From Helicobacter sp. (GTDB lineage Bacteria > Campylobacterota > Campylobacteria > Campylobacterales > Helicobacteraceae): DNA of 61,744 nucleotides. The stretch is from positions 1 through 61,744 of the forward strand of contig NZ_JALEIK010000015.1 in NCBI RefSeq assembly GCF_022770205.1, in the 5' to 3' direction. Positions 9,874-39,088 of this stretch are shown piece by piece; within the stretch, counting starts at the first letter, position 1, and every line of letters starts with the position of its first letter. The position numbers were made by a program, and so were the translations under genes. Below the pieces are notes generated by a model. The model saw only the letters and a list, made by a program, of their open reading frames with translations, was not told where the DNA came from and did no database searches.

Positions 9874-11458
9874 TTTTCCTTGTAAAAATCATAAGTGCTA
9901 ATAGCGATAAAAGCACAATTAAAAGTGAGGGTAAGGCAGCATCATAAATGCGTTCATCTGTTGCATACCAAAAAGCTTTAACACTGAGTGTTTCAAACCC
10001 AAAGGGTGCTAGGATGCGACTTAATGGAAGTTCTTTGACAATATCAATGAATGCAACAATAAATGCTAAGAGTAAAAAATGTTTTAATAAAGGCAAATGC
10101 ACTTTAGAAAATAGATTCCAATAACTTACCTTTAAATGTAAGCTTGCTTCATCTATGCAATGATGGATTTTTGTGTAACCGCTTTCTAAAGAGTAAATTG
10201 CTGTGGCTAAAAAGCGTATGATATAAGCAAAAACAAGGACAACTAAACTTTGCCCAAAGAGAGAAGTCCCACTGATTTTGTCTAAAAATATAAAAGCAAT
10301 CATTATGCTAATACCAATAGCTGCTCCGGGTATTGCATACCCTAGAGAGCTTGTTTTTAAAATAAAAATGGCTAAAAGATTATTTTTTACAATTCTTGCT
10401 ATAAAGCTTAAAAATAAAGCTAGTGCAACAATGATTAATGCGCTTAAGAAAGCTAGTGCAAGTGTTTTAAATGCTATGATATAAAATTCACTTTGTAAGA
10501 GTTTTTCGTCTTTTAATGCCCAAAATATTAGCCAAATAAAAGGTATTATAAAACCAACAGCTGCAATGATTAAGCAATATAGGCTTGCAAAAATTTGTTG
10601 GATACGGCTTAATCTCCTTTTGGGTAGAGAATGTGTTAAATTTTGGTTGAAACTATATTTTTTTTTCATTTTATATTGGTATTCAATAAACATAAGTAAA
10701 AAAATAAATAGCATTAAAAAACCAGAGAGAACGCTTGCACTATAAGAATCGCTTAAGTCATACCAAAGCTTGAAAATCCCTGCTGAGAAAGTATCCATGC
10801 CTAGATAAGCTGAAGCACCATAATCACTTAAAGTTTCCATAACAATTAGCATAATGGAAGCTAAAATTGCAGGTCTAGCAATAAGCAGGGCAAATTTGCG
10901 GAAAAATTTAAATTCTGTATAATGCGAGATTTTTGCTAATTCATAGACTTCTTTTGCTTCGGTTTTAAAACTTGTTTTTGCAAAGAGATAAACATAAGGA
11001 TATAAAGAAATGGCTAAGACAAAAATCACTCCATAAATATTGAAAAAATCAATCCTAATTCCAAAGGTATTATGAAAAAATCCATTAAAATCCATAATTC
11101 CAACATAAACAAATGCCAAAATATAAGCAGGGATTGCTAAGGGAAGAATTAAAATATTTTCTAAGACTTTGGAAAAATAAAAGTTAAAATTCGCAATTAA
11201 ATAAGCTGTTGTTAATCCTAAAAATAAGCTTAAGATTACAACACCAATTGTAACAATAAAGGTATCTTTAACAAATTTCAAAAATAAATAATTAAAAAAA
11301 TGCGCCAAATTTTCTTTAATGGTTACAATTTCAGTTAAATTTTGGGAATTGAAACTTTGAATCAGAATGTAAAAAAGTTCTATAAAGATGCTAATAACAG
11401 GTAGAAGCATAAAAAGGGCAAGTAAAATTGCCCCTATTTTTAGTGCCTTTAAAGTCAT
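9857..11458 (-). CDS. fbpB: Ferric iron ABC transporter, fused permease
   Basis: The 533-residue protein has about twelve membrane segments in two homologous halves, the layout of FbpB/SfuB permeases where two permease units are fused. Each half has an EAA-type loop for the ATPase (EVYELAKIS near 168 and DEASLHLKVS near 444). It overlaps fbpA by four bases (ATGA) and fbpC by 17. Substrate assignment comes from the adjacent FbpA-like protein. Confidence 0.88.
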   Translation of the reverse strand: MTLKALKIGAILLALFMLLPVISIFIELFYILIQSFNSQNLTEIVTIKENLAHFFNYLFLKFVKDTFIVTIGVVILSLFLGLTTAYLIANFNFYFSKVLENILILPLAIPAYILAFVYVGIMDFNGFFHNTFGIRIDFFNIYGVIFVLAISLYPYVYLFAKTSFKTEAKEVYELAKISHYTEFKFFRKFALLIARPAILASIMLIVMETLSDYGASAYLGMDTFSAGIFKLWYDLSDSYSASVLSGFLMLFIFLLMFIEYQYKMKKKYSFNQNLTHSLPKRRLSRIQQIFASLYCLIIAAVGFIIPFIWLIFWALKDEKLLQSEFYIIAFKTLALAFLSALIIVALALFLSFIARIVKNNLLAIFILKTSSLGYAIPGAAIGISIMIAFIFLDKISGTSLFGQSLVVLVFAYIIRFLATAIYSLESGYTKIHHCIDEASLHLKVSYWNLFSKVHLPLLKHFLLLAFIVAFIDIVKELPLSRILAPFGFETLSVKAFWYATDERIYDAALPSLLIVLLSLLALMIFTRKNDVTT

Positions 11459-24562: not shown

Positions 24563-26062
24563 TTATTTAGAATGATTTTCTTGAAAATTAAACATAATTG
24601 CATCTTCCTCTGTTTGCAGAAAATATTTTTGTGTTATTGTTTTTGTTTCCGTGTAAAATGTCATCGCTTGTTTGCCATAGGCGTGTAAATCACCATAAAA
24701 TGAGCCTTTCCAGCCTGTAAAAGAGAAAAATGGTAAAGGCACAGGAATAGGCACATTAACGCCAACTTGTCCAACATTAACTTCTTTTGTAAAATGCGAT
24801 GCGCTTGCAAGGGAGTTGGTAAAGATAGAAGTGCCATTACCAAACTCATTGTTATTAATGATGTCTAGGGCTTCGTTGAGATTTTTTGCCTCTAAGATGC
24901 ACAGCACGGGTGCAAAAATTTCTTTTTTGTAAATTTGCATAGAGGTTGTAACTTCGCTAAAAACGCAAGGTCCAAGCCAATTGCCATTAGGATAACCCTC
25001 TATGGAGATATTTCTGCCATCAAGAATAAGGTTTGCTCCCTCTTTGATTCCTTCTTCAATGCTTTGTAATACGCGTTCTAATGCTGCCTTGGTGATAAGC
25101 GGACCATAAGCTGCTTTAGGGTTATTGTAAGCTCCGGGTTTTATGGCTTTTAATTTATTGATGAGTGTTGGGATAAGTTTTTTAGAATCTCCTACAAAAA
25201 TTGCCACAGAGATTGCCATACATCTTTGTCCAGCAGCTCCCATAGAAGCTCCAATGAGTGCATTGATGGCTTTTTCTTCATCAGCATCTGGCATAACAAC
25301 AAGATGATTTTTTGCTCCAACTAATGCTTGGGCGCGCTTAAGATTTGCTGTGGCGCGTGAGTAGATATATGCCCCAACTTTTGGAGAGCCAACAAAGGAA
25401 TAAGCTTTGATTAAAGGATGATCAAGCAGCATATCAACTTGTTCTTTTTGTCCGTGAACAACTTGTAAGATTCCTTTTGGAACATCACATTGCATAAAAA
25501 GTTCCGCTAATTTCATTGCTGTTTGTGGCACCATTTCTGAAGGCTTTAGGATAAAAGCATTGCCTGCTACAATTGCTAAAGGAAACATCCACAAAGGAAT
25601 CATACCGGGAAAATTAAAAGGAGTGATTCCCGCGCAAACACCTAAAGGTTGTTTGTAGGAAAAAGTGTTGATTCCTTTAGAAACATTTTCTATGGTTTCT
25701 CCCATAAGCAAAGTAGGTGCAGAGCAAGCAAACTCTATGACTTCATACCCTCTTGTTAAATCGCCCTTTGCGTCATCTAGGGTTTTTCCTTGTTCAATGG
25801 ATAAAATTTCTGCAAGTGTGTTGAGATTTTTCTTAACTAATGCTTGGTATTCTAGCATAACCCTCACTCTTGTCATAATTGATGTATCTCTCCATTGTAA
25901 AAAGGCATTATGTGCGGTTGTTGCTGCTTCATCAATCTCTTCTTTTAGCATGCAGGGCACTTGCGCTAATATCTCTTGAGTAAGCGGAGAGAGTGATTGT
26001 GCGAAATGCGTTGTTTTGCTTTCTTTAAAAGTTCCATTAATTAATGCTTGAATTGTTTTCAT
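24563..26062 (-). CDS. mmsA: CoA-acylating malonate/methylmalonate-semialdehyde dehydrogenase (IolA/MmsA)
   Basis: This 499-residue aldehyde dehydrogenase converts malonate semialdehyde to acetyl-CoA and CO2 with NAD and CoA, the last step of inositol degradation. The catalytic Cys281 lies in GAAGQRCMA, the signature of MmsA, and [15 protein letters not shown] near 147-161 is likewise specific. The YETETKTIT-like C-terminus (FYTETKTIT) is typical. It is the only gene of the inositol island on the minus strand and is divergent from the transporter genes across a 354-base regulatory gap, so it is probably co-regulated. Valine catabolism is the alternative role, but no such genes are nearby. Confidence 0.93.
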
Positions 26063-26416
26063 TACGAATAACTCCTTATATTATTGTATTTTTATGTGTA
26101 AAGCTGCTTGACTACCATCGGTTTGAAAGTAGAAATTTTAAGCGATGAACCTTAAATAAAACCTTATTTTTGTGTTAAATGATAACAAAAAAAGATTAGG
26201 TTTGATGAAATATTGAGAATAGCTAATAGAAGATTGGGAAATATATTGGTTAATTTGTGAATTTTTTTCACAAAATTAACACCACATTGGAAAAAATGTT
26301 TCAAAAATATACATATAAAATTTTTTTTGATGATTTTTATCGCTTGGACAGCGCTGGAGATAATTTTATGTTATTCTTATATGGCGATTTTAGTTTTCGT
26401 TTTCAAGGAGTTTATT
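26063..26416. promoter_or_regulatory. Divergent control region of the inositol island
   Basis: The gap between mmsA and the first binding-protein gene holds an imperfect inverted repeat: TTAATTTGTGA (26250-26260) and TCACAAAATTAA (26268-26279), with outer GG/CC extensions. Its core TGTGA-N7-TCACA resembles a Crp-type site with one extra spacer base. A -10-like GATAAT at 26359-26364 and AAGGAG at 26405-26410 serve the rightward operon. No regulator gene is in the island, so control must come from elsewhere. Operator function is inferred. Confidence 0.45.
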
Positions 26417-27325
26417 ATGTTGTATCAAATTTTAAAGATGGCAGTTGCAACCTTTTTGAGTTGTGGATTTTTATTTGCCAAGGACATAAATATTGTGTTT
26501 GTTGGCAGTGGAATTGACGCTGATCCTTTTTGGAGTGTAGTGAAAAATGGAGCAATGGATGCTGCTAAAGATATGGGAGCAAAAGTTGAATATCGCAATG
26601 CCGCTAATGGAGATAGAACAGAGATGGCGCGCATTATTCAATCAGCTATTTCTAAGCGACCTGATGGTTTAGTTGTATCTATTGCAGATAAGGACGCTTT
26701 GGCGAAGGATATTAAAAGAGCTGTGGATTTAAAAATTCCTGTGATTAATGTAAATTCTGGAGCAGAGGCAGGGAAAGAATTAGGAGCTTTGTTATATATT
26801 GGCAATAGTGAATACCAAGCAGGACTATTAGCTGGCAAAAAAGCAAAGACAGAAGGTGTGAAAAGCTTTATTTGTGTCAATCACGAAATCACAAATACAG
26901 TTTTAGAACAAAGATGTCAAGGCTTTGCTGATGGTTTAGGTGTTAAAAATAATATGCTTGATGCAGGATTTGATCCAAGCGAGAGTCAGAAGAAATTAGA
27001 ACCTTATTTGAGTCAAGTTGATGCGATTTTAACCATTGGACCTGTTTCGGCGTCTTCAACAATTGATTTGTTAAAGAAAAAAAGGATGAAAAAGTATTTT
27101 GTAACCTTTGATTTAAGCCAAGAAATCACAAATGCGATTAAAGATGGTAGCATTGATTTTGCGATTGATCAACAACAATATTTGCAAGGTTATTTGCCGA
27201 TAGTGTTTTTAACGCAGTATGCGAAATATGGAGTGATTCCTGCTAATGATGTCTATACTGGACCTGCTTTTGTAACAAAAAGTAATGTTGATAGCGTGCA
27301 GAAATTTGCAGGAAAATATAGGTAA
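26417..27325 (+). CDS. Periplasmic sugar/inositol-binding protein, copy 1
   Basis: A 302-residue type I periplasmic binding protein (RbsB/IbpA family) with signal peptide (hydrophobic MAVATFLSCGFLFA). The mature part begins KDINIVFVGSGIDADPFW, and the family pattern AISKRPDGLVVSIADKDAL and PVINVNSGAE follows. I chose ATG 26417 because AAGGAG lies six bases before it; the open frame continues 30 codons further upstream without a ribosome site. It shares a 78-base identical block with copy 2. Inositol specificity is inferred from the operon. Confidence 0.88.
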   Translation: MLYQILKMAVATFLSCGFLFAKDINIVFVGSGIDADPFWSVVKNGAMDAAKDMGAKVEYRNAANGDRTEMARIIQSAISKRPDGLVVSIADKDALAKDIKRAVDLKIPVINVNSGAEAGKELGALLYIGNSEYQAGLLAGKKAKTEGVKSFICVNHEITNTVLEQRCQGFADGLGVKNNMLDAGFDPSESQKKLEPYLSQVDAILTIGPVSASSTIDLLKKKRMKKYFVTFDLSQEITNAIKDGSIDFAIDQQQYLQGYLPIVFLTQYAKYGVIPANDVYTGPAFVTKSNVDSVQKFAGKYR

Positions 27326-27395
27326 TTGGTTATTTTTTAATGGCGTAAAGCTATACATTTTGATGTATGGTAATTTTTAAATTCAAAGGAGAAAA

Positions 27396-28295
27396 ATGTT
27401 TAAGAAGATCGTTTTATGCATGTTGTTGTGTGTGGGGGCAGTTTATGCAAAGCAGTTGCATTTTGTATTTATTAGCAATGGGTTAGATGTTGATCCTTTT
27501 TGGAATGTGATTAAAAATGGAATTAATGATGCGGCTAAAGAAGTTGATGCAAGAGTGGATTATCGTAATTCTCCAACAGGAGATAGAACAGAAATGGCAA
27601 GAATTTTACAAGCAGCCATTTCGCAACGACCAGATGGAATCATTATTTCTATTCCTGACAAAGATGCTTTAGGTAAAGATATTAAAAGGGCTTTAGATTT
27701 AAAAATTCCTGTGATTAATGTTAATGCGGGTGTAGAAGCAGGCAAGGAATTGGGGATTAAAAATTATATTGGCTCTAATGAATATCAAGGTGGAATGTTG
27801 CTTGGTGAGCAAGCAAAAAAGGCAGGTGTTCAAAGTTTTGTTTGTGTGAATCAAGAAATCACAAATACAGTTTTAGAACAAAGATGTCAAGGCTTTGCTG
27901 ATGGTTTAGGTGTTAAAAATAATATGCTTGATTCTAGTAGTGATCCTAGTGAGATACAAAAAAGATTAGCCCCTTATTTAGATAAGGTTGATGCGGTTGT
28001 AACTTTAGGTCCTGTATCTGCTGGAGCAACTATTGGGCTTTTGAAAAGTAAAAGAATGAAAAAGCATTTTGTAACCTTTGACTTAAGCCCAGAAATTATT
28101 GCGGGGATTAAAGAGGGAGTGTTGCTATCAGCAATTGATCAACAGCCCTATTTGCAAGGATATTTGCCTGTGATTTTGCTTTCAAAATATGTTCCTTATG
28201 GATTGTTGCCTGATGGAGATATTTATACAGGACCAGCTTTAGTAACAAAAGAAAATGTTGATTTAGTGGATAAATTAACAGGAAAATTTAGATAG
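27396..28295 (+). CDS. Periplasmic sugar/inositol-binding protein, copy 2
   Basis: The 299-residue paralogue of the preceding gene has a signal peptide ending in GAVYAKQ and the same fold and motifs (ISNGLDVDPFWNVI, RPDGIIISIPDKDAL, NVNAGVEAGKELG). The pair differ mostly in the first domain and near the C-terminus, so they may bind different inositol isomers, or one may be a spare copy. Bases 27855-27932 are identical to 26885-26962. The gene is followed by two hairpins before the permease. Confidence 0.88.
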   Translation: MFKKIVLCMLLCVGAVYAKQLHFVFISNGLDVDPFWNVIKNGINDAAKEVDARVDYRNSPTGDRTEMARILQAAISQRPDGIIISIPDKDALGKDIKRALDLKIPVINVNAGVEAGKELGIKNYIGSNEYQGGMLLGEQAKKAGVQSFVCVNQEITNTVLEQRCQGFADGLGVKNNMLDSSSDPSEIQKRLAPYLDKVDAVVTLGPVSAGATIGLLKSKRMKKHFVTFDLSPEIIAGIKEGVLLSAIDQQPYLQGYLPVILLSKYVPYGLLPDGDIYTGPALVTKENVDLVDKLTGKFR

Positions 28296-28305
28296 CAATG
28301 CGTGG

Positions 28306-28373
28306 GGTGGCTTTGCCCACCTTGTAGCAATTTCATATTGAGCAATGTGCTGCTAGGGTTTATTGCTCAATAT
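28306..28373 (+). promoter_or_regulatory. Tandem hairpins between binding-protein and permease genes
   Basis: GGTGG (28306-28310) pairs with CCACC (28317-28321), and ATATTGAGCAAT (28335-28346) pairs perfectly with ATTGCTCAATAT (28362-28373). No T-tract follows, so these are not simple terminators. Such structures after a binding-protein gene often stabilise the upstream mRNA or partly terminate, giving more binding protein than permease. Confidence 0.55.
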
Positions 28374-28408
28374 CAAATTATAAAAATGATTTTATTTAAG
28401 GAAAATAA

Positions 28409-29488
28409 ATGGCTGATGAACGACTAAAACAAGAAACTGCTTTGTTAAAAGCATTAAAAAGACCTGAATTTCCTCCTGTTTTTGGGGTGGTATTGGTTTT
28501 TGCTGTCTTTTTGGCTCTAGCAAGCGGTGATATGTTTTCTTTGGAAGGGATAATGTCTTGGACAGAGCAAGCCGCATTAATTGGAATCTTAGCTGTTGGA
28601 GTGTGTTTGCTTATGATTGCTGGGGAGTTTGATTTATCTGTTGGCTCTATGATAGGTTTTGCGGGAATGATGATGGCAATTTTAATTGTTGAATTTGAGA
28701 TGAATCCTTCTTTGGCTATTGTCTTAACAATGCTTGTTTCTTTAGGGATTGGTTTTTTAAATGGATATTTGGTGATTAAAACCCGCTTGCCTTCTTTTAT
28801 TGTTACTTTAGGAAGTTTGTTTATTTTAAGAGGCTTAACTGTGGCGTTAAGTAGGCTTTTGACAAATCAAACCTTAGTTTCAGGCGTCAATTCTCACACA
28901 GAAGGTAGCATTTTAGCAGCTTTTTTTGGAGGAGAAACTTTCACTGCGCTATTTAGTTTTTTGGCAAAAGCTGGGATTATCGCAACTTATGATGATGGCA
29001 CTCCTATTGTAACAGGGATTAAAATGGTTGTTGTATGGTGGATAGGATTAACAATTGTTGGAGTGATTATTCTTAGATTAACTAAATATGGGAATTGGAT
29101 ATATGCCACAGGAGGAGATGAGCAAGCTTCAAAAAATATGGGCGTTCCAACAGATAGAGTTAAGATTTGTTTATTTATGCTGACGGCTTTATGTGCGAGT
29201 ATTTTTGCTGCTTGTCAAGTCTTTGATTATGGCTCTGCAGATGCGCAAAGAGGAGTTTTAAAAGAGTTTGAGGCAATCATTGCTGTGGTTATGGGTGGAG
29301 TTTTGCTTACAGGAGGATATGGGACGGTGATTGGAGCGTCTTTGGGGGCTTTGATTTTTGGTGTGGTTAATATTGGGATTAGTTACACTGGAATTGATAG
29401 TGATTATTTTAGGGTGTTTTTAGGTTGTATGCTCCTAGCAGCAGTTGTTTTTAGTGATTCAGTAAGAAAAAAAGTAATGAGGCAGTGA
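28409..29488 (+). CDS. Inositol/sugar ABC transporter permease
   Basis: The 359-residue RbsC-family permease has about eight to ten membrane helices, with LMIAGEFDLSVGSMIGFAGM near 69-88, NGYLVIKTRLPSFIVTLGS near 113-131 and GGVLLTGGYGTVIGASLGAL near 294-313, all standard for CUT2 permeases. It resembles inositol and fructose permeases (IatP/FrcC). It ends in TGATG coupling to the ATPase. Confidence 0.88.
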   Translation: MADERLKQETALLKALKRPEFPPVFGVVLVFAVFLALASGDMFSLEGIMSWTEQAALIGILAVGVCLLMIAGEFDLSVGSMIGFAGMMMAILIVEFEMNPSLAIVLTMLVSLGIGFLNGYLVIKTRLPSFIVTLGSLFILRGLTVALSRLLTNQTLVSGVNSHTEGSILAAFFGGETFTALFSFLAKAGIIATYDDGTPIVTGIKMVVVWWIGLTIVGVIILRLTKYGNWIYATGGDEQASKNMGVPTDRVKICLFMLTALCASIFAACQVFDYGSADAQRGVLKEFEAIIAVVMGGVLLTGGYGTVIGASLGALIFGVVNIGISYTGIDSDYFRVFLGCMLLAAVVFSDSVRKKVMRQ

Positions 29489-30282
29489 TGGCAGAACCAA
29501 TTATTCATATAGAAAATGTAACAAAACATTTTGGAAATATTATTGCTTTAAATGGTATTTCTATGGACCTTTATGCAGGTGAGGTAATGTGTCTTTTAGG
29601 GGATAATGGAGCGGGGAAATCCACTTTAATTAAGACTTTGGCAGGAGTGTATGAAAAAACTTCAGGAATTTATCGCATTAATGGTAAAGATGTTATTGCT
29701 CCAACCCCGCATAAAATTTTAGATGAAGGTGTGGCAACTGTGTATCAGGATCTATCTACTGTTCCTTTGATGTCTTTATCAAGAAATTTCTTTTTGGGAA
29801 GAGAAGAGGAGATTGAAAAAAGATTTTTATTTTTTAAGGTGCTTGATTTTAAAAAGGCAAATGCAATCACCATTAAGGCAATGAAAGATATTGGGATTAA
29901 TGTGCGTGAGCCAAGTCAGCCCATTGGCACATTAAGTGGTGGAGAGAGGCAGTGTTTAGCTATTGCCAAGGCAGTGCATTTTGGGGCAAAAGTTTTAATT
30001 CTTGATGAACCAACTTCTGCCTTAGGAGTGGCGCAGTCTTCTATGGTGTTAAAATATATTTTGCAAGCAAAAAGACGAAATTTAGGGGTGATTTTTATTA
30101 CCCATAATGTTTATCACGCTTATGCTGTTGGAGATCGCTTTACAATTTTAAATCGAGGTAAAACAATGGGGACTTTTAAGAAAAATGAAATTACCACGGA
30201 GCAACTACAAAATAAAATGGCAGGAGATAAAACAATACAAGATCTTACTGCAGAATTAGGAACAGATACTAAGGGTTTATAG
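29488..30282 (+). CDS. Inositol/sugar ABC transporter ATPase, single domain
   Basis: The 264-residue ATPase has Walker A GDNGAGKST at about 38-46, Q-loop YQDLSTVPLMS, signature LSGGERQ near 146-152, Walker B VLILDEPTSALG and the switch H in ITHN. Most CUT2 transporters use a fused double ATPase of about 500 residues; this one is single, as in fructose FrcA, and must work as a homodimer. I chose ATG 29488, overlapping the permease stop by one base. Confidence 0.88.
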   Translation: MAEPIIHIENVTKHFGNIIALNGISMDLYAGEVMCLLGDNGAGKSTLIKTLAGVYEKTSGIYRINGKDVIAPTPHKILDEGVATVYQDLSTVPLMSLSRNFFLGREEEIEKRFLFFKVLDFKKANAITIKAMKDIGINVREPSQPIGTLSGGERQCLAIAKAVHFGAKVLILDEPTSALGVAQSSMVLKYILQAKRRNLGVIFITHNVYHAYAVGDRFTILNRGKTMGTFKKNEITTEQLQNKMAGDKTIQDLTAELGTDTKGL

Positions 30283-30291
30283 GAAGGATTT

Positions 30292-32136
30292 ATGGAGACA
30301 ATTAAACTAACAACAACACAAGCCTTGGTGCGTTATCTTTTATCGCAGTATATTAGTATTAATGGCAAGAAAGAAAGGATTTTTTATGGGGGGTTTGGAA
30401 TCTTTGGACACGGCAATGTAACTTGTTTGGCGGAATCTCTTTATGATGCTAAAGAGCAAATGCCAACTTACAGGGGGCAAAATGAGCAGTCTATGGCAAT
30501 GGCTGCCTTAGGATTCACTAAAGCAAAAAATAGAAAGCAAATGATGTTCGTTACTTCTTCTATCGGTCCTGGAGCAACAAATATCATTACTGCTTGTGGA
30601 GTGGCTTATACTAATTCTTTGCCTTTATTGGTTTTATCTGGAGATTATTTTAACCATAGGTTGCCATCTCCTGTTTTGCAACAAATTGAACAAAGTTATG
30701 ATGCGACTTTATCGGCAAATGATTGTTTTAAGCCAATTGTAAAATATTGGGATAGAATCACGGCACCTCAACAGATTTTGCATTCTCTTCCTTTAGCATT
30801 AGAAACAATGTTAAATCCTTCCACTTGTGGTCCTGTTTTTTTGGGGCTTTGTCAAGATGTTCAAGCAATGAGTTATGATTATCCCCTAGAATTTTTTGAA
30901 AAAACTATCCACAGCATTCCTCGCATAAGAGCTGATGAAATGGCAATCAGAAGGGCAAGCGATTGCATTAAGCAATCAAAAAAAGTTGTGATTCTTGCAG
31001 GGGCGGGGGTGATTTATTCTGAAGCGCAAAAAGAATTTTTGCAATTTGTTCATCAATGCCGCATTCCTTTTGTAACAACAGCAGGTGCAAAGTCTTTAAG
31101 TTTATACGAGGAACAATTTAATATTGGACCTGTTGGAGTGCTTGGGTCTTGTAGCGCAAATCATCTTATTAAAAAGGCTGATGTGGTGATTGTAATTGGT
31201 AGCAGATTGCAAGATTTTAGCACAGGTTCGTGGGCAAATTTTAGCCACCATACTAAACTTATTAGTATTAATACGCAAAGCATTGATGCAATTAAGCATA
31301 GAAGCATTGCTTTAGTCAGTGATGCAAAAGAGGCATTAAAGGAGCTTTTGGAATTGTGCAGAGATTTTAGAAATGACGAAAACTTTGTATCAGAGGCTTT
31401 TGCGCATAGGCAGCAATATCATCTTTTTATAGAGTCAAAAATCAATGAGAAAAAGGAAAGTATTACTTACGCAAATGTGATTGGAAGACTCAATCAGCTT
31501 ACAACGCAAAAGGATAGGTTAATTCTTGCTGCGGGAGGCTTGCCCGGAGAATTTAATACGCTTTGGAAAAATCTTAGTTTTAATTCCATAGACCACGAGT
31601 ATGGTTATTCTTGTATGGGGTATGAAGTTTCAGGGGGGTATGGCTCTGCGATTGCCCATAAAGATGGAGATAGCATTGTGCTTGTTGGAGATGGTTCTTA
31701 TATGATGTTAAATAGTGAGATTTATTCATCAGTATTAAGTGGTGATAAAATGATAGTGATTGTTTGCGATAATGAGGGCTATGCAGTAATTAATCGTTTG
31801 CAGATAAATCAAGGAGGGGAGCCTTTTAATAATTTGATTGAAGATTGTAAATTAGCAATAGAACCTTTTATGGTGGATTTTGTTGCAAACGCAAAGAGTA
31901 TGGGAGCTGATGGGAATTTTGTGGATTCCTTAGAGGAATTTGAATCTGCCTTTAAGAGAGCAAGAGAAAGTGCGGTAACTTTTATTATTCATATTAAAGT
32001 TTCTAAGTATGATTGGACGGAATATGCTGATACTTGGTGGGAAGTGGGTGTACCAGAGGTGAGTCAAAAAGAAAAGATACAGCGGGCAAGAGCAATGTAT
32101 GAAAGCAATGCAAATAAGCAAAGAAAGGGTGTGTAA
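30292..32136 (+). CDS. iolD: 3D-(3,5/4)-trihydroxycyclohexane-1,2-dione hydrolase IolD
   Basis: IolD opens the ring of the diketone made by IolE to give 5-deoxyglucuronate, using thiamine diphosphate. The 614 residues show the three-domain ThDP-enzyme layout: an N-terminal PYR domain with the catalytic-glutamate region PTYRGQNEQSMAMAALGF, a central GPGATN / CFKPIVKYWD part, and a C-terminal PP domain with the ThDP-metal motif GDGSYMMLNSE near 467-477. Length matches IolD. It overlaps iolE by one base (TAATG), which implies tight coupling. Confidence 0.93.
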   Translation: METIKLTTTQALVRYLLSQYISINGKKERIFYGGFGIFGHGNVTCLAESLYDAKEQMPTYRGQNEQSMAMAALGFTKAKNRKQMMFVTSSIGPGATNIITACGVAYTNSLPLLVLSGDYFNHRLPSPVLQQIEQSYDATLSANDCFKPIVKYWDRITAPQQILHSLPLALETMLNPSTCGPVFLGLCQDVQAMSYDYPLEFFEKTIHSIPRIRADEMAIRRASDCIKQSKKVVILAGAGVIYSEAQKEFLQFVHQCRIPFVTTAGAKSLSLYEEQFNIGPVGVLGSCSANHLIKKADVVIVIGSRLQDFSTGSWANFSHHTKLISINTQSIDAIKHRSIALVSDAKEALKELLELCRDFRNDENFVSEAFAHRQQYHLFIESKINEKKESITYANVIGRLNQLTTQKDRLILAAGGLPGEFNTLWKNLSFNSIDHEYGYSCMGYEVSGGYGSAIAHKDGDSIVLVGDGSYMMLNSEIYSSVLSGDKMIVIVCDNEGYAVINRLQINQGGEPFNNLIEDCKLAIEPFMVDFVANAKSMGADGNFVDSLEEFESAFKRARESAVTFIIHIKVSKYDWTEYADTWWEVGVPEVSQKEKIQRARAMYESNANKQRKGV

Positions 32137-33017
32137 TGCAAGTGAAATTAGGGATTGCTCCAATTGCTTGGAGTAATGATGATTTAAGAGAGTTGGGTGG
32201 AGAAACACCATTGGAAGTGTTTTTGAGTGATGCGAAAAAAATCGGTTTTGATGGAGTGGAGCTTGGATATAAATTCCCTTATGACAAGAAAGAGCTTAAA
32301 CGCATTTTAAAGGATTATGATTTAGAGCTTGCTGGAGGATGGTTTAGTGGGAATTTATTGGTGCAAAGTGTTGCCCAAGAGCAAGAGAGTCTTTTAAGGG
32401 AAATGGAGCGAAGAGCCTATTGTGATTGTTATCAACTCGTGTATGCAGAATGTTCTAATACGATACAAGGAAAGCCTTTGGGCTTAAGTAAAAAGCCTAT
32501 TTTAACACAGGACGAAATTAAGGAATATGCAGAAAAATACTCTTCTTTAAATGCTTTTGTTAGCAAGCAGGGCTTCAGTATGGGCTTTCATCATCATATG
32601 GGAGCAATTTTTCAATATGCTAATGAAGTGGATTTGTTTTTACAATATGCTTCTTTAGGATCTGGATTGACTTTTGATACAGGACATTTTTATTTTGCGG
32701 GTGCAAATCCTTTAGAAGAACTTAAAAAACATTTGCATCGTGTGAAACATATTCATTTAAAAGATGTTAGAGAACAAGTTAAGCAAGAAATGCTTCAAAA
32801 AGATAGTAGTTTTTTGGAATCTGTTATTGCAGGAGTTTATACAACTCCTGGAGATGGTGTGATTGATTTTAAGGGAATTCTTGACTTTTTAAAAACCACA
32901 AACTATGAAGGTTGGTTAGTGATTGAAGCAGAGCAAGATCCTAAGAAGGCAGATCCTTATGAGTACTCTAAAAAAGCCTATGCTTTAGTGCAAGATTTAT
33001 TGAAAGGGCAGCCATGA
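32136..33017 (+). CDS. iolE: Inosose dehydratase IolE
   Basis: IolE removes water from 2-keto-myo-inositol. The 293-residue TIM-barrel protein has the family start LGIAPIAWSNDDLRELGG, the FDGVELGYKFP segment, metal-ligand regions with GFHHHMGAIF near 150-159, TFDTGHFYFAG, HIHLKDVR and the late EAEQDP. These match IolE. It overlaps iolD by one base and the following dehydrogenase by four. Confidence 0.93.
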   Translation: MQVKLGIAPIAWSNDDLRELGGETPLEVFLSDAKKIGFDGVELGYKFPYDKKELKRILKDYDLELAGGWFSGNLLVQSVAQEQESLLREMERRAYCDCYQLVYAECSNTIQGKPLGLSKKPILTQDEIKEYAEKYSSLNAFVSKQGFSMGFHHHMGAIFQYANEVDLFLQYASLGSGLTFDTGHFYFAGANPLEELKKHLHRVKHIHLKDVREQVKQEMLQKDSSFLESVIAGVYTTPGDGVIDFKGILDFLKTTNYEGWLVIEAEQDPKKADPYEYSKKAYALVQDLLKGQP

Positions 33018-34177
33018 GAACAATTGGTGTTGGTGTGATTGGTATGGGCTGGATGGGGAAAGCCCATAGTAGTGCTTATATCAATTATCGTCTAAAATTT
33101 GGACACACAGGAATTATACCAAGACTTGTAATTTGCAGTGAGGTGATTGAGGAGAGGGCAAAAGAGGCAAAAGAAAGATTTGGCTTTGAAAAGTATAGTA
33201 TGCATTGGAAAGATGTGGTTGATGATGATTGCGTAGAAATTGTTGAGATTACTGCTCCTAATGCTTTGCATTTGGAAATTATAAAATATTGTGTTGCAAA
33301 GGGTAAGCATATAAATTGTGAAAAGCCTGTGGGGGCATTTTTAGAGCAAAGTATTGAAGCCTATAATCTTGTTAAAAATTATCCTTATCAAACTTTTGTT
33401 GGATTCAACTATCGTTGGGCGCCTTTGGTGCAGTATGTTAAAGAGTTGCTTGATAGTGGGAAATTAGGAGAGGTGTATAGCTATAAAGGCAGATTTTTTT
33501 CGTGTTATGCAGCAGATGCCCTTAGTTGTTACTCGTGGAGATTTGAAAAGGAAAATGGTTTAGGTGCGATTACAGATTTAATGAGCCACGCTGTTGATAT
33601 GGCATTATATTTACTTGGTGATATTAAAAGTGTTAGTGGAGTTATGCGAACTTTTATTAAGGAGCGACCCCTAGCTCAAGAAGGAGCAAGTCATTATGCA
33701 AGGGGGAAGGAAAGCGATGCAAAAAAGGAAGTAACTAATGAGGATTATGTGGGTGCTAGAGTGAGTTTTTGTAATGGCGCAGAGGGCTTTATTGACACAT
33801 CGCGTTGTTTTGTTGGTCCTACTTCTGAACATAGCTTTGAGATTCATGCATCAAAGGGCAGTGTAAAATGGAATTTTGAGGAGATGAATACATTAGAGTT
33901 GTATCTTGAAGGAGACGAGCAATCAAGTGGTTATAGGAAAATTTATTCTTCTCCTGTACACCCTTTTCATCAATATTTCAATCCCTCTAATGGCACTTCA
34001 CTTGGATATGATGATTTAAAAACCTTAGAAATTGCACATTTTTTAGGGAAAATTTTTGATAAGAATTATCCCTATTATGCGGATTTTCAATCAGCAGCTA
34101 GAGTGGCAAAAGTGCTTGGGGCAATCATAGAATCCAATACGATTAAAGAACAAGTGAAATTGGAGATGGAAATATGA
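33014..34177 (+). CDS. Gfo/Idh/MocA-family oxidoreductase (second inositol-type dehydrogenase)
   Basis: The 387-residue NAD(P)-dependent enzyme has the Rossmann start GVGVIGMGWMGKAHSSAY, the conserved CEKPVG lysine-proline and the GFNYRWAPLVQYVKEL segment. The region TDLMSHAVDMALYLLG holds the family's D/H catalytic pair. It is distinct from the IolG at 35887 and longer. Plausible jobs are scyllo- or chiro-inositol oxidation, or handling of a glucose-type or methylated inositol substrate. The sequence does not decide. It is embedded in the operon, overlapping iolE and the dehydratase by four bases each. Confidence 0.8.
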   Translation: MRTIGVGVIGMGWMGKAHSSAYINYRLKFGHTGIIPRLVICSEVIEERAKEAKERFGFEKYSMHWKDVVDDDCVEIVEITAPNALHLEIIKYCVAKGKHINCEKPVGAFLEQSIEAYNLVKNYPYQTFVGFNYRWAPLVQYVKELLDSGKLGEVYSYKGRFFSCYAADALSCYSWRFEKENGLGAITDLMSHAVDMALYLLGDIKSVSGVMRTFIKERPLAQEGASHYARGKESDAKKEVTNEDYVGARVSFCNGAEGFIDTSRCFVGPTSEHSFEIHASKGSVKWNFEEMNTLELYLEGDEQSSGYRKIYSSPVHPFHQYFNPSNGTSLGYDDLKTLEIAHFLGKIFDKNYPYYADFQSAARVAKVLGAIIESNTIKEQVKLEMEI

Positions 34178-35877
34178 AAAAGCTGCGCAGTTTAAAGTGG
34201 TTTGAAAAAGATGATTTAAGAAGCTTTGGACATCGTTCAAGAGTGAATCAAATGGGCTATGCGCCTGAAGAGTATATTGGTAAACCTATCATTGCTATTA
34301 TTAACACTTGGAATGATTTTAATACCTGCCACACGCATTTTAAAGAAAGAGTGGAGGATATTAAAAGGGGGGTATTACAAGCAGGGGGGTTTCCTATGGA
34401 GATTCCTTGTATGAGTGTTGGAGAGCAACTCATTAAGCCTACCTCTATGATGTTTAGAAATTTTTTAGCAATGGAGGTTGAGGAAATGCTTAGAGCTTTT
34501 CCAGTAGATGGTGCTGTGCTTATGGGGGGATGTGATAAAACAACGCCTGCTGTGCTTATGGGGGCAATTTCTTTTAATCTTCCTATGATTTATATGCCAG
34601 CAGGAGCAATGTTAAGAGGGAATTTTGATGGAGAGATTTTAGGCAGCGGAACAGATGTTTGGAAGTATTGGGATTTAAGACAGGCAGGTTGTTTTGGGGA
34701 TTGTGAGTGGAGAAGGTTAGAAAAGGGTATTGCAAGGAGTGCTGGGACTTGTATGACTATGGGAACAGCAGCAACAATGATGACAATGGCAGAGGCGCTT
34801 GGTTTATGTCTTAGTGGAGCTTCTTCTATTCCGGCAGTGGATTCAAATCATCGGAGAATGGCTAGAGAGTGCGGAGTTGAAATTGTTCGGCTTGTAAGAG
34901 AGGATATTAAGCCTTTAGATATTTTGAAAAAAGAATGTTTTGAAAATGCAATCATCACTTTACATGCCATTGGAGGTTCTACAAATGCAATCATTCATCT
35001 TATTGCATTAGCAAGAAGGGCAGGGATTGTGTTAGAGTTAGAGGATTTTGAGCGTTTGGGAAAAGGGATTCCTTTGCTTTTAAATCTTAAGCCATCAGGA
35101 AAATATGTGATGGAGGATTTTTATTATGCAGGAGGTATTCAAGCATTGCAAAATACTTTAAAAACAAAGTTACATAATATTCAAACCATTAAAGGAGATT
35201 TGTATGGCAATATTGAGGGGGCAAAAATTTTTAATTCTGAAGTGATTAGAACATTAGAGAATCCTTTAAGCACAGAGCCAAGTTTAGTAGTGTTAAAAGG
35301 AAACCTTTGTTTAAATGGAGCAATTTTAAAGCAATCTGCCTGCGAAAAAAGACTTTTAAAGCATAAAGGTAGGGCTTTAGTGTATGAAGATATTGAAGAA
35401 TTAAAGGCAAATATTGATAGAGAGGATTTAGATGTTGATGAAAATACAGTGCTTGTTTTAAAGAATGCAGGACCTCTAGGCGCACCAGGAATGCCTGAAT
35501 GGGGGCAGTTGCCAATCCCCAAGAAGTTATTGAAAAAGGGAATAAAAGATTTATTAAGAATTTCTGATGCAAGAATGAGTGGAACAAGTTATGGAGCTTG
35601 TGTTTTGCATATCAGTCCGGAATCTTATATTGGAGGGAATTTAGCACTTGTTAGGACAGGAGATATCATTTGTATTGATGTGGAAAAAAGATTGCTAGAA
35701 GTTTGTTTAAGTAAGGAGGAGTTAAATCAAAGGCGAAAGGAGTATAAGCCTCCACAGAGGGATTATAGTAGTGGGTATTTAAGGTTGTATACAGAATATG
35801 TAACACAAGCACACGAGGGTTGTGATTTTGATTTTTTAACTGAAAATCGTAGCCACTTAGAACCAAGAATTTTTTAA
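34174..35877 (+). CDS. IlvD/Edd-family sugar-acid dehydratase, proposed 5-deoxyglucarate dehydratase
   Basis: The 567-residue protein belongs to the IlvD/Edd superfamily, close to the L-arabinonate/D-xylonate dehydratases. Three iron-sulfur cysteines are visible: Cys52 in NTCHTHF, Cys120 in GGCDKTTPA and Cys193 in GTCMTMG. Their spacing equals that of rhizobial arabinonate dehydratase as I recall it. The C-terminal DARMSGTSYGACVLHISPE block is the sugar-acid version. These enzymes remove the C3 hydroxyl of 2,3-dihydroxy acids to give 2-keto-3-deoxy acids. In this operon the fitting substrate is 5-deoxyglucarate, giving 4-hydroxy-2-oxoadipate. It is not the biosynthetic IlvD by context. Confidence 0.85.
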   Translation: MKKLRSLKWFEKDDLRSFGHRSRVNQMGYAPEEYIGKPIIAIINTWNDFNTCHTHFKERVEDIKRGVLQAGGFPMEIPCMSVGEQLIKPTSMMFRNFLAMEVEEMLRAFPVDGAVLMGGCDKTTPAVLMGAISFNLPMIYMPAGAMLRGNFDGEILGSGTDVWKYWDLRQAGCFGDCEWRRLEKGIARSAGTCMTMGTAATMMTMAEALGLCLSGASSIPAVDSNHRRMARECGVEIVRLVREDIKPLDILKKECFENAIITLHAIGGSTNAIIHLIALARRAGIVLELEDFERLGKGIPLLLNLKPSGKYVMEDFYYAGGIQALQNTLKTKLHNIQTIKGDLYGNIEGAKIFNSEVIRTLENPLSTEPSLVVLKGNLCLNGAILKQSACEKRLLKHKGRALVYEDIEELKANIDREDLDVDENTVLVLKNAGPLGAPGMPEWGQLPIPKKLLKKGIKDLLRISDARMSGTSYGACVLHISPESYIGGNLALVRTGDIICIDVEKRLLEVCLSKEELNQRRKEYKPPQRDYSSGYLRLYTEYVTQAHEGCDFDFLTENRSHLEPRIF

Positions 35878-35886
35878 AGGAGTCTT

Positions 35887-36897
35887 ATGTTAAATGTTGG
35901 TGTTTTAGGAACGGGAAGGATTGGAAAAATCCATATTTCAAATTTAGTTAATCATGCACAAGTGAAAGTTGTTTTAGTTGCAGATCCTTACATTGATGAA
36001 GAATTTGTCCAATCTTTGCAGCTTCCCTTTAGCAGAGATAGTCAAGATGTTTTAACGCATAAAGACATTGATGTGGTGTTTATCTGCACTTCAAGCGATA
36101 CGCATTATGATTTGATTAAAAGCGCAATTATTGCTGGGAAAAAGGCAATTTTTTGTGAAAAGCCTGTTGATTTAGATTTGCAAAGAATTTTAGAGATTGA
36201 ACATCTTGTTAGGCAGCATAATGTTTTTTTGCAAATTGGATTTAATAGAAGGTTTGATTCAAATTTTAAGCAAATTGCAAAATTGGTGCGAAAAGGGGAA
36301 GTTGGAAGATTGGTGCATACGAGAATTGTCTCCCGCGATTTTTCTGCTCCGCCAAGAAGTTATGTTGAAAAATCAGGCGGAATCTTTTTGGATATGAGTA
36401 TTCACGATTTTGATATGTTGCGTTATGTAACGGATAGGGAAGTTCAAGAAGTGTATGTAAGGGGTGCATCTTTAGTCAGTGATTATGGAGATATTGATAT
36501 TGATAGTGCGTTGATTTCCTTGGTGCTTGATGATGGTTCGCTTGCAAGCATTGAAAATTGTAGAGAGGCTGTTTATGGTTATGATCAAAGAGTTGAAGTT
36601 TTTGGGAGAAAGGGGAGAGTATCTTGTGAGAATAAATATGAAAATTCTGTGCTTTTATGTAATGCTCATTGTGAGAGTCGCTCTAATCCTCTTGATTTTT
36701 TCTTGGAGCGTTATGCGGATTCTTATCGTAATGAGTTGGAGGATTTTATCTCTCAATATTGCGCAAAAAAATCTCCAAGCGTTGGGATTAAAGAAAGCAT
36801 TGAGGCGACTTTGATTGCTTTAGGGGTAATGGAATCGCTAAAGCAAAATTGCTCAATTTCAATGGAAGCAATCCGCAATCAATACATAAAAGGATGA
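35887..36897 (+). CDS. iolG: myo-Inositol 2-dehydrogenase IolG
   Basis: IolG oxidises myo-inositol to scyllo-inosose with NAD. The 336-residue Gfo/Idh/MocA protein has GVLGTGRIGKIH at the N-terminus, the catalytic-lysine motif FCEKPVDLD near 94-102, GFNRRFDSNF and MSIHDFDMLRY with the aspartate-histidine pair of the family. Overall it is the best match in the window to IolG of Bacillus. Unusually it sits late in the operon, behind the sugar-acid dehydratase. Confidence 0.9.
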   Translation: MLNVGVLGTGRIGKIHISNLVNHAQVKVVLVADPYIDEEFVQSLQLPFSRDSQDVLTHKDIDVVFICTSSDTHYDLIKSAIIAGKKAIFCEKPVDLDLQRILEIEHLVRQHNVFLQIGFNRRFDSNFKQIAKLVRKGEVGRLVHTRIVSRDFSAPPRSYVEKSGGIFLDMSIHDFDMLRYVTDREVQEVYVRGASLVSDYGDIDIDSALISLVLDDGSLASIENCREAVYGYDQRVEVFGRKGRVSCENKYENSVLLCNAHCESRSNPLDFFLERYADSYRNELEDFISQYCAKKSPSVGIKESIEATLIALGVMESLKQNCSISMEAIRNQYIKG

Positions 36898-36899
36898 AA

Positions 36900-38348
36900 A
36901 TGAAAAGTTATTTTGATTATGGCTTATACATTAATGGAAGTTTTATAGAGGGCAAAGATGGGGTTTTTGATGTGATTAATCCTTTCAATGAAGAAGTTTT
37001 AGGGCAAGCACCCATTGCTTCCCAGCAACAAATTAGAGAAGCAATAGATTATGCCCAAGAAGCAATGTTAGAGTATTCTAAGTTACATGCTTGGGAGAGA
37101 GCAGAAAAATTACTCAAAGTGGCAACATTTTTAAGGGAAAATCTTAATGAGATTGCAAAGAGTATTACTCTTGAAACAGGTAAGCCCATTGCTCAAAGTG
37201 TGAGAGAAACTAATTTGGCAATTGATCAATTTATTTGGTTTAGCGAACAAACAAAAAGAATTAATGGGCAGATTATCTCAAGTCGCAATCCCAGCACAGA
37301 AGTGTATGTGAAGTATGAGCCTATTGGAATTGTGGCAGCTTTTTCTTCGTGGAATTTTCCTTTATTATTAACAGCGCGCAAACTTGCCCCTGCCTTAGCA
37401 GCAGGTTGTGCGGTGATTGTCAGAAGCACAGACATTGCACCCCTTGTTAGTATGAAGCTATTTGAAGCTTTGCACCAAGCGCAATTTCCTAAAGGCTTAG
37501 TTGCGCTTTTGTGCGGGAAAGCATCAGTGATTTCATCAGTGCTTATGCAAGATGTTCGGGTAAGAAAGGTGTCTTTAACAGGTTCTACGGCTGTTGGACA
37601 ACAGCTTATTAGGGATTCAAGTTTAACTTTGAAAAAAGTAACAATGGAGCTTGGAGGGCATGCCCCTGTGATTGTATGTGAAGACACTGATGTTAGGGAA
37701 GTAGCGGCAATGAGTGTGAAGGTTAAATTTGCTAATGCTGGACAAGTGTGTGTTTCTCCTACAAGATTTTATATACATAAGAGCGTGATGGATTCTTTTT
37801 GTGAAGTTTTTGTGGCAGAAACAAGAAAACTTAAGCTTGGCAATGGGCTTGATGGATCTGTGGATATGGGACCTTTAGTTACACAAAAAAGACTAGAAGA
37901 GATTCAATCTTTCATGCAAAAAGCAAAAGAAACTGGAGGAAAAATTCTTACGGGTGGGAAGAGAGTGCAAGGTTTTGATAAAGGCTATTTTTTTGAGCCG
38001 ACAGTGATTAGGGACTTACCTGATGATTCCCATTTATTGTGCAATGAAATTTTTGGACCCATTGCTTTGATACAAAGTTTTGAAGATTTAGATGAGGTTT
38101 TAAAAAGGGCAAATAACACAGAATATGGGCTTGCCTCTTATGCTTTTACAACTTCTTTGGAAAAGGCGCATTTAATAGCAGAGCATCTTTCAGCGGGAAT
38201 GGTTGGAATTAATAGTTTTGCCCTAGCAGCAGCAGAAGTTCCATTTGGAGGGATTAAAGCAAGCGGTTTTGGAAGAGAAAGTGGTGTAGAGGGTATGCAG
38301 GAATATTTGCAGTCTAAGATTATTACTCAAAGGTTCCTAGGATTATGA
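36900..38348 (+). CDS. NAD(P)-dependent aldehyde dehydrogenase, proposed 5-deoxyglucuronate dehydrogenase
   Basis: The 482-residue aldehyde dehydrogenase has the catalytic cysteine Cys284 in NAGQVC and general-base Glu250 in MELGGH, and is closest in style to succinate/ketoglutarate-semialdehyde dehydrogenases. The usual K-P-S/A-E NAD-ribose motif reads RSTDIAP here, so the nucleotide contact differs. In the proposed route it oxidises the C1 aldehyde of 5-deoxyglucuronate to 5-deoxyglucarate. I placed the start at ATG 36900, six bases after AAAGGA; it follows the iolG stop directly and overlaps the aldolase by four bases. Confidence 0.85.
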   Translation: MKSYFDYGLYINGSFIEGKDGVFDVINPFNEEVLGQAPIASQQQIREAIDYAQEAMLEYSKLHAWERAEKLLKVATFLRENLNEIAKSITLETGKPIAQSVRETNLAIDQFIWFSEQTKRINGQIISSRNPSTEVYVKYEPIGIVAAFSSWNFPLLLTARKLAPALAAGCAVIVRSTDIAPLVSMKLFEALHQAQFPKGLVALLCGKASVISSVLMQDVRVRKVSLTGSTAVGQQLIRDSSLTLKKVTMELGGHAPVIVCEDTDVREVAAMSVKVKFANAGQVCVSPTRFYIHKSVMDSFCEVFVAETRKLKLGNGLDGSVDMGPLVTQKRLEEIQSFMQKAKETGGKILTGGKRVQGFDKGYFFEPTVIRDLPDDSHLLCNEIFGPIALIQSFEDLDEVLKRANNTEYGLASYAFTTSLEKAHLIAEHLSAGMVGINSFALAAAEVPFGGIKASGFGRESGVEGMQEYLQSKIITQRFLGL

Positions 38349-39088
38349 AAAGACTTATAAGTAAGTGGGAAAAGCAGATTCCGACAATAAATGGTTGGCT
38401 GAGTTTAAACAATGCTTTTGGGGCTGAAATAATGTCTTATGCGGGTTTTGACTCTCTTACGATTGATATGCAGCACGGAATTAGTGATTACTCAAGTCTT
38501 TTGCCAATGCTACAAGTTTTAAAGGGAATTCCTTGTTTTGTTCGTGTGCCTTGGCTTGAAGAAGGAATTATTATGAAAACGCTTGATGCGGGAGCAATGG
38601 GAATTATTTGTCCAATGATTAATCACAAAGAAGATGCGTTAAAATTGGCAAAGTTTTGCCATTATCCCCCTAAAGGAGAGCGGAGCTTTGGTCCTATTCG
38701 GGCTAAATTTCTTTGTGAAGGAGACTATTTTATACAGCACCATCTCTTAATTTTAGCAATGATTGAAACAAAGCAAGCATTGGAAAATCTTTCTGATATT
38801 TTATCTGTTGATGGGATTGATGGGGTATATGTGGGTCCTGCTGATCTTTCCTGTGCGTTGGGTGTTGCCCCAAGATTTGATCAAGAAGAGAAAATTGTAT
38901 TAGAGGCAATTCAAATGATTTTATCTCAAGCAAAAAGACATAAAAAATATGCAGGGATTCATAATCTTGGTGCGCATTATGCAAGAAAAATGGCGGACTT
39001 AGGCTTTAATTTTGTAACCATTGGTTCTGATGCGTTTTTTATGCTTGATGGGGCAAAAAAAGCAGCGGAAGCTTTTAAATTTCAGTGA
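38345..39088 (+). CDS. HpcH/HpaI-family class II aldolase, proposed 4-hydroxy-2-oxoadipate aldolase
   Basis: The 247-residue TIM-barrel aldolase cleaves 4-hydroxy-2-oxo acids to pyruvate and an aldehyde. All catalytic residues of E. coli HpcH have counterparts: the Asp-His pair in DMQHG (His44), Arg67 in FVRVPW, and metal ligands Glu141 (IETK) and Asp167 (PADLS) at the same 26-residue separation. HpcH splits the seven-carbon dicarboxylate into pyruvate and succinate semialdehyde. The six-carbon substrate expected here would give pyruvate and malonate semialdehyde, the MmsA substrate. It is the last gene of the operon. Confidence 0.88.
   Translation: MKRLISKWEKQIPTINGWLSLNNAFGAEIMSYAGFDSLTIDMQHGISDYSSLLPMLQVLKGIPCFVRVPWLEEGIIMKTLDAGAMGIICPMINHKEDALKLAKFCHYPPKGERSFGPIRAKFLCEGDYFIQHHLLILAMIETKQALENLSDILSVDGIDGVYVGPADLSCALGVAPRFDQEEKIVLEAIQMILSQAKRHKKYAGIHNLGAHYARKMADLGFNFVTIGSDAFFMLDGAKKAAEAFKFQ

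Follow-up and report, generated by a model that had tools for sequence, protein, structure and literature searches.

Organization of the gene cluster

The window, that is, the whole 61,744-nucleotide stretch of DNA that was analyzed from a small gut Helicobacter sp., contains genes in the order iolD-iolE-Gfo/Idh-IlvD/Edd dehydratase-iolG-ALDH-hpcH. The aldolase gene is the last of the string, and a divergent mmsA gene is located upstream. The intergenic gaps from the permease gene of the preceding transporter to hpcH range from -4 to +9 bp, a spacing that suggests a single transcript. The GC content of the cluster, 0.367, is close to the value of 0.361 for the rest of the window.

The reverse strand encodes MmsA/IolA (24563–26062; TIGR01722, 702 bits, cut-off 448.5), a CoA-acylating (methyl)malonate-semialdehyde dehydrogenase, the gene of which adjoins the operon in the window as well as at each of the other five Campylobacterota loci that were inspected. 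The remaining genes are on the forward strand. The sugar/inositol-type ABC transporter (26327–30282) is composed of two SBPs (26327–27325 and 27396–28295), a permease (28409–29488), and an ATPase (29485–30282), and is conserved together with the operon. Both SBPs resemble the rhizopine SBP model NF052284, with scores of 309 and 269 bits that are under its cut-off of 420. They are paralogs arranged in tandem (26327–28295) in front of the permease. Of the other five Campylobacterota loci, four have one SBP, and L041 has none among its listed ORFs.

The first enzymes encoded downstream of the transporter are the trihydroxycyclohexane-1,2-dione hydrolase IolD, which gives 5-deoxyglucuronate (30292–32136; TIGR04377, 746 bits, cut-off 715), and the myo-inosose-2 dehydratase IolE (32136–33017; TIGR04379, 342 bits, cut-off 290). 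The inositol 2-dehydrogenase IolG (35887–36897; TIGR04380, 365 bits, cut-off 355) is encoded further along the string. Between iolE and iolG are the genes of a second Gfo/Idh/MocA oxidoreductase (33014–34177) and of an IlvD/Edd-family sugar-acid dehydratase (34174–35877). The best NCBIfam match of the oxidoreductase is levoglucosan dehydrogenase NF052479, with 288 bits and below the cut-off of 650; the enzyme perhaps acts on another inositol isomer. It is kept in every cluster and is outside the pathway steps proposed below. The dehydratase is of the L-arabinonate dehydratase type (NF009559, 902 bits, cut-off 882), and its best solved match is also L-arabinonate dehydratase (PDB: 5j83/9evv).

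The ALDH gene (36894–38348; Aldedh, PF00171) begins with an ATG at 36894 that overlaps the iolG stop codon, and its end is overlapped by hpcH by 4 bp. The protein is of the SSADH or alpha-ketoglutarate-semialdehyde dehydrogenase type, and the solved structures nearest to it are those of SSADH and KGSADH. Its score is under the cut-off of every NCBIfam model among the matches listed, which counts against the step proposed for it below.

Fold and catalytic residues of the aldolase

The ORF at 38345–39088 on the forward strand is intact and encodes a 247-residue protein of the HpcH/HpaI family of class II aldolases (PF03328, 114.3 bits, gathering cut-off 25). The highest NCBIfam score, 153.7 bits, is obtained with HpaI (TIGR02311), the equivalog cut-off of which is 368.8; the GarL equivalog TIGR03239 gives 138 bits against a cut-off of 406.75. 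Structure prediction, which the initial annotation had put forward as a check, produced an AlphaFold2 model with a mean pLDDT of 93.6 from an input of 36 sequences. The model has the TIM-barrel fold of the family and superposes on SwHKA (Z 36.5), HpaI (Z 32.8), and GarL (Z 32.6). SwHKA, the hydroxyketoacid aldolase of Sphingomonas wittichii RW1 (PDB: 6r62), is the best PDB match by both sequence and structure and shares the DMQH and RSFGP motifs with the query; it differs in having a phenylalanine at the position of His206 and was crystallized with hydroxypyruvate.

The query was aligned with the hpaI product of E. coli BL21 and with GarL and RhmA of MG1655, all taken from annotated genomes. 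His44, Arg67, Glu141, and Asp167 of the query correspond to H45, R70, E149, and D175 of HpaI, H50, R75, E153, and D179 of GarL, and H49, R74, E153, and D179 of RhmA, and each of the four proteins has a spacing of 26 between the metal-binding glutamate and aspartate. The match to the catalytic residues of E. coli HpcH and the identical gap between metal ligands, both claimed in the initial annotation, are thus confirmed. The His/Arg catalytic pair and the Glu/Asp metal ligands are invariant in both family alignments (A2, A3). Judged from these alignments, the four residues are not a chance match; they are family-wide, are silent on substrate length, and establish the reaction class only, that of a metal-dependent class II pyruvate aldolase. 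They cannot discriminate between substrates because HpaI, which uses a C7 substrate, GarL, which uses a C6 substrate, and RhmA, which uses a deoxy-sugar acid, have the same set. The earlier reading of these residues as fitting a C6 acid is therefore not borne out.

The C6 chain length is not novel and is already that of GarL, the 2-dehydro-3-deoxyglucarate aldolase of E. coli (EC 4.1.2.20). GarL has the class II fold and the four catalytic residues of the query, to which it is 33% identical. It cleaves the C6 4-hydroxy-2-oxo dicarboxylate 2-dehydro-3-deoxyglucarate, which is the substrate proposed here for the query, 4-hydroxy-2-oxoadipate, with an additional 5-hydroxyl group, and yields pyruvate. 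The other product of GarL is tartronate semialdehyde, whereas the query would release malonate semialdehyde, which lacks the 5-hydroxyl. C6 substrates thus have a precedent in the family, and the novelty lies in the proposed non-phosphorylative inositol route.

The aldehyde pocket

In HpaI of Acinetobacter baumannii, the aldehyde is positioned against Trp21, Leu214, and Val236, and catalysis is carried out by Arg72, Glu46, and His47 (PMC8560999). According to the alignment, the corresponding residues of the query are Trp18, His206, and Ser228, and Arg67, Gln43, and His44. Relative to E. coli HpaI, Leu212 and Val234 are replaced by His206 and Ser228, and Glu44 by Gln43. His206 and Gln43, which are common to the entire surrounding subfamily, suggest that the aldehyde site is more polar than that of HpaI, and we infer that such a site would fit a short carboxylated aldehyde. 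However, HpaI-type aldolases accept many aldehydes (PMC8560999), which counts against the reaction proposed below. Two candidate features of the site were rejected: His206 as an inositol-specific signature, as the whole subfamily has it, and Arg119 as a new carboxylate-binding residue, as a fuller alignment identified it as the family-wide "RA" arginine.

It is extremely improbable that the aldolase acts, like HpaI, on a C7 or hydrophobic 4-hydroxy-2-oxo acid and that its position in the operon is incidental. E. coli HpcH/HpaI, the 4-hydroxy-2-oxoheptanedioate aldolase, shares the catalytic residues, fold, and metal-ligand spacing with the query and provides its top-scoring NCBIfam model. However, that score is far under the equivalog cut-off, the two proteins are 32% identical, the hydrophobic pair L212/V234 is not retained in the query, and the operon is without genes of the homoprotocatechuate pathway.

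Distribution of the cluster among Campylobacterota

IolD scores over its cut-off in six of the 397 Campylobacterota genomes sampled. An aldolase profile built from the proteins of these six genomes matches exactly the same six, with 440–480 bits, and the next best match has 197 bits; in this sample, the aldolase clade never occurs without iolD. The gene order is identical in all six, although some frames are fused or split in one of them. From the permease to hpcH, the order is also the same at two more loci, which come from MAGs of Arcobacter and Campylobacteraceae, so that it is found in eight of eight clusters. Within the GTDB family to which the window belongs, the clade occurs in 4 of 121 genomes. 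The genome with the altered frames is the uncultured Helicobacter MAG G211 (L041:3454-5034, 10436-11403), in which the Gfo/IlvD pair forms a single fused ORF and mmsA is broken into two parts; either assembly frameshifts or decay may account for this.

In the classical Bacillus and Salmonella pathway, IolG, IolE, and IolD take inositol to 5-deoxy-D-glucuronate, and the textbook continuation needs IolB, IolC, and IolJ. The cluster has IolG, IolE, IolD, and MmsA/IolA in common with this pathway, but instead of IolB, a recognizable IolC, and a dedicated IolJ, it contains an ALDH, an IlvD-type dehydratase, and an HpcH aldolase. IolB (TIGR04378) was found in none of the eight Campylobacterota genomes with the cluster, while control genomes matched. 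The best IolC (TIGR04382) matches in these eight genomes have at most 85 bits against a cut-off of 300, and we take them as generic PfkB-kinase matches. There is one class II FBA per cluster genome and no spare IolJ. The six sampled genomes are at least 99% complete, and a chance assembly loss of iolB and iolC is therefore unlikely. Because iolB and a recognizable iolC are absent, the textbook route stops at 5-deoxyglucuronate here.

The inositol route of Thermotoga maritima, which uses IolM/N/O and 5-ketogluconate, likewise departs from that of Bacillus, but the cluster keeps IolE and IolD. The T. maritima pathway is that of Rodionova 2013, a work cited in PMC12632266. One large survey of inositol clusters, in which three of iolB/C/D/E had to be present, gave Campylobacter as being without the genes (PMC9430895); clusters with only iolD and iolE would have escaped such a count.

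Related aldolases in other bacteria

At several loci of Burkholderiales and Gammaproteobacteria (L053, L057, L060, L069, L070, L082, L084, L114), members of the wider subfamily that are 48–51% identical to the query are neighbors of glucarate dehydratase, of tartronate-semialdehyde reductase, or of both. The NCBIfam profiles were checked on L069, in which glucarate dehydratase (TIGR03247) passes its cut-off of 829 with 858 bits and tartronate-semialdehyde reductase (TIGR01505) its cut-off of 341 with 403 bits. The pocket residues W18, H206, N207, and S228 of the glucarate-linked aldolases equal those of the query clade. Judging from their neighbors, these aldolases should cleave 2-keto-3-deoxyglucarate, a C6 dicarboxylate that is the 5-hydroxy version of the substrate proposed for the query.

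At all of these loci other than L057, an HpcH aldolase distinct from GarL adjoins glucarate dehydratase; tartronate-semialdehyde reductase is present too at all of them but L060. Such aldolases perhaps take the role of GarL in Burkholderiales and in one gammaproteobacterium.

The aldolases of Campylobacterota form one clade (100/99) in a maximum-likelihood tree, apart from the glucarate group. The sisters of the query clade are three Verrucomicrobiales proteins rather than the glucarate-linked aldolases, which counts against the C6 reading; the short contigs of the sisters hold no informative neighbors.

In Alphaproteobacteria, including Mesorhizobium, Rhodobacter, Tabrizicola, and Cypionkella, a block of ALDH, HpcH, and 2-hydroxyacid dehydrogenase genes is located near iolD and/or iolE, without IlvD (L089, L092, L098, L100, L106, L108, L109, L111, L113, L117, L122, L123; ALDH was not detected in the block of L117). 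It was considered whether these iol-linked aldolases belong to the same pathway, and this was rejected, since the clusters contain no IlvD except in Acidocella. The iolB gene is kept in 12 of 13 of those alphaproteobacterial genomes, the exception being a MAG, and iolC has a strong match in all four that were tested; the Acidocella score is 293 bits, just below the cut-off of 300. The block is conceivably a hydroxypyruvate-yielding variant.

Such a donor was also weighed for the query, which would then cleave a 3-hydroxylated C6 acid to hydroxypyruvate rather than pyruvate, as SwHKA does. Among the solved homologues, SwHKA comes closest (39% identity over the structural alignment), and the DMQH motif is common to both proteins. 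Nevertheless, this is very improbable: the operon dehydratase makes 3-deoxy products, pointing to pyruvate, and a hydroxypyruvate donor is better suited to the alphaproteobacterial clusters, which are without IlvD and have a 2-hydroxyacid dehydrogenase.

The Acidocella aquatica locus (L061:31-13543) contains an iolC-like gene, iolD, iolE, and mmsA, after which come a lactonase-like gene and the HpcH, IlvD, and Gfo genes. This locus combines a large part of the enzyme set described here with an iol operon of the conventional kind.

Proposed pathway

We propose, with a probability of about three in four, that the aldolase is a class II pyruvate aldolase that ends a non-phosphorylative inositol pathway. 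Its physiological substrate is, just as probably, 4-hydroxy-2-oxoadipate. From 5-deoxyglucuronate, the ALDH would oxidize C1 to give 5-deoxyglucarate, and the IlvD/Edd dehydratase would remove water across C2–C3 to form 4-hydroxy-2-oxoadipate. The L-arabinonate and xylonate dehydratases act on 2R,3S substrates, and this C2/C3 configuration matches that of 5-deoxyglucarate, which supports the action of the dehydratase on the latter compound. The retro-aldol reaction, the last C–C cleavage by an enzyme, would yield pyruvate and malonate semialdehyde, and MmsA would convert the latter to acetyl-CoA and CO2. The net conversion would be of inositol to pyruvate, acetyl-CoA, and CO2; it would include three dehydrogenation steps and would not need a kinase. 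In this scheme, each missing step would have a gene and, with the exception of the second Gfo/Idh, nearly each gene a step.

The cleavage of a C6 acid to pyruvate and malonate semialdehyde for MmsA had been proposed in the initial annotation from the active-site residues. The residue argument fails, but the reaction itself is well supported at the level of genes and genomes: the C6 reading is supported by the operon, the absence of iolB and iolC, the co-occurrence with iolD, and the subfamily members in glucarate clusters.

The same genes could be divided between two pathways in one operon, with IolG/E/D serving inositol and the Gfo/Idh, IlvD, HpcH, and ALDH proteins an Entner-Doudoroff- or Dahms-like aldose pathway, from a sugar through a sugar acid and a 2-keto-3-deoxy acid to pyruvate and a short aldehyde, and on to an acid. 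In favor of this, the score of the dehydratase is over the cut-off for L-arabinonate dehydratase, the ALDH resembles SSADH and lactaldehyde types, and the HpcH-IlvD pair of Acidocella comes after an iol operon of conventional type that includes an iolC-like gene. We nevertheless consider such a division unlikely. Inositol breakdown would then end at 5-deoxyglucuronate in eight of eight genomes, the aldolase clade never occurs without iolD in the 397 Campylobacterota genomes sampled, and the cluster is without a lactonase.

A third, kinase-free inositol route is thus probable in Campylobacterota, leading from 5-deoxyglucuronate through 5-deoxyglucarate and 4-hydroxy-2-oxoadipate to pyruvate and malonate semialdehyde with a dedicated aldolase. 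The breakdown of pentoses and other sugars offers well-known examples of non-phosphorylative schemes of oxidation, dehydration, and aldol cleavage. No report of this inositol route was found among the open-access titles and abstracts listed, and such an absence is weak evidence.

If correct, the proposed route would provide inositol catabolism with a lower half that is non-phosphorylative and Weimberg/Dahms-like, and would give a specific biochemical role to an uncharacterized aldolase subfamily. It would also explain why such clusters are invisible to surveys requiring three of iolBCDE (PMC9430895). Helicobacter and Arcobacter relatives would gain a carbon source whose use avoids the kinase and triose-phosphate steps.
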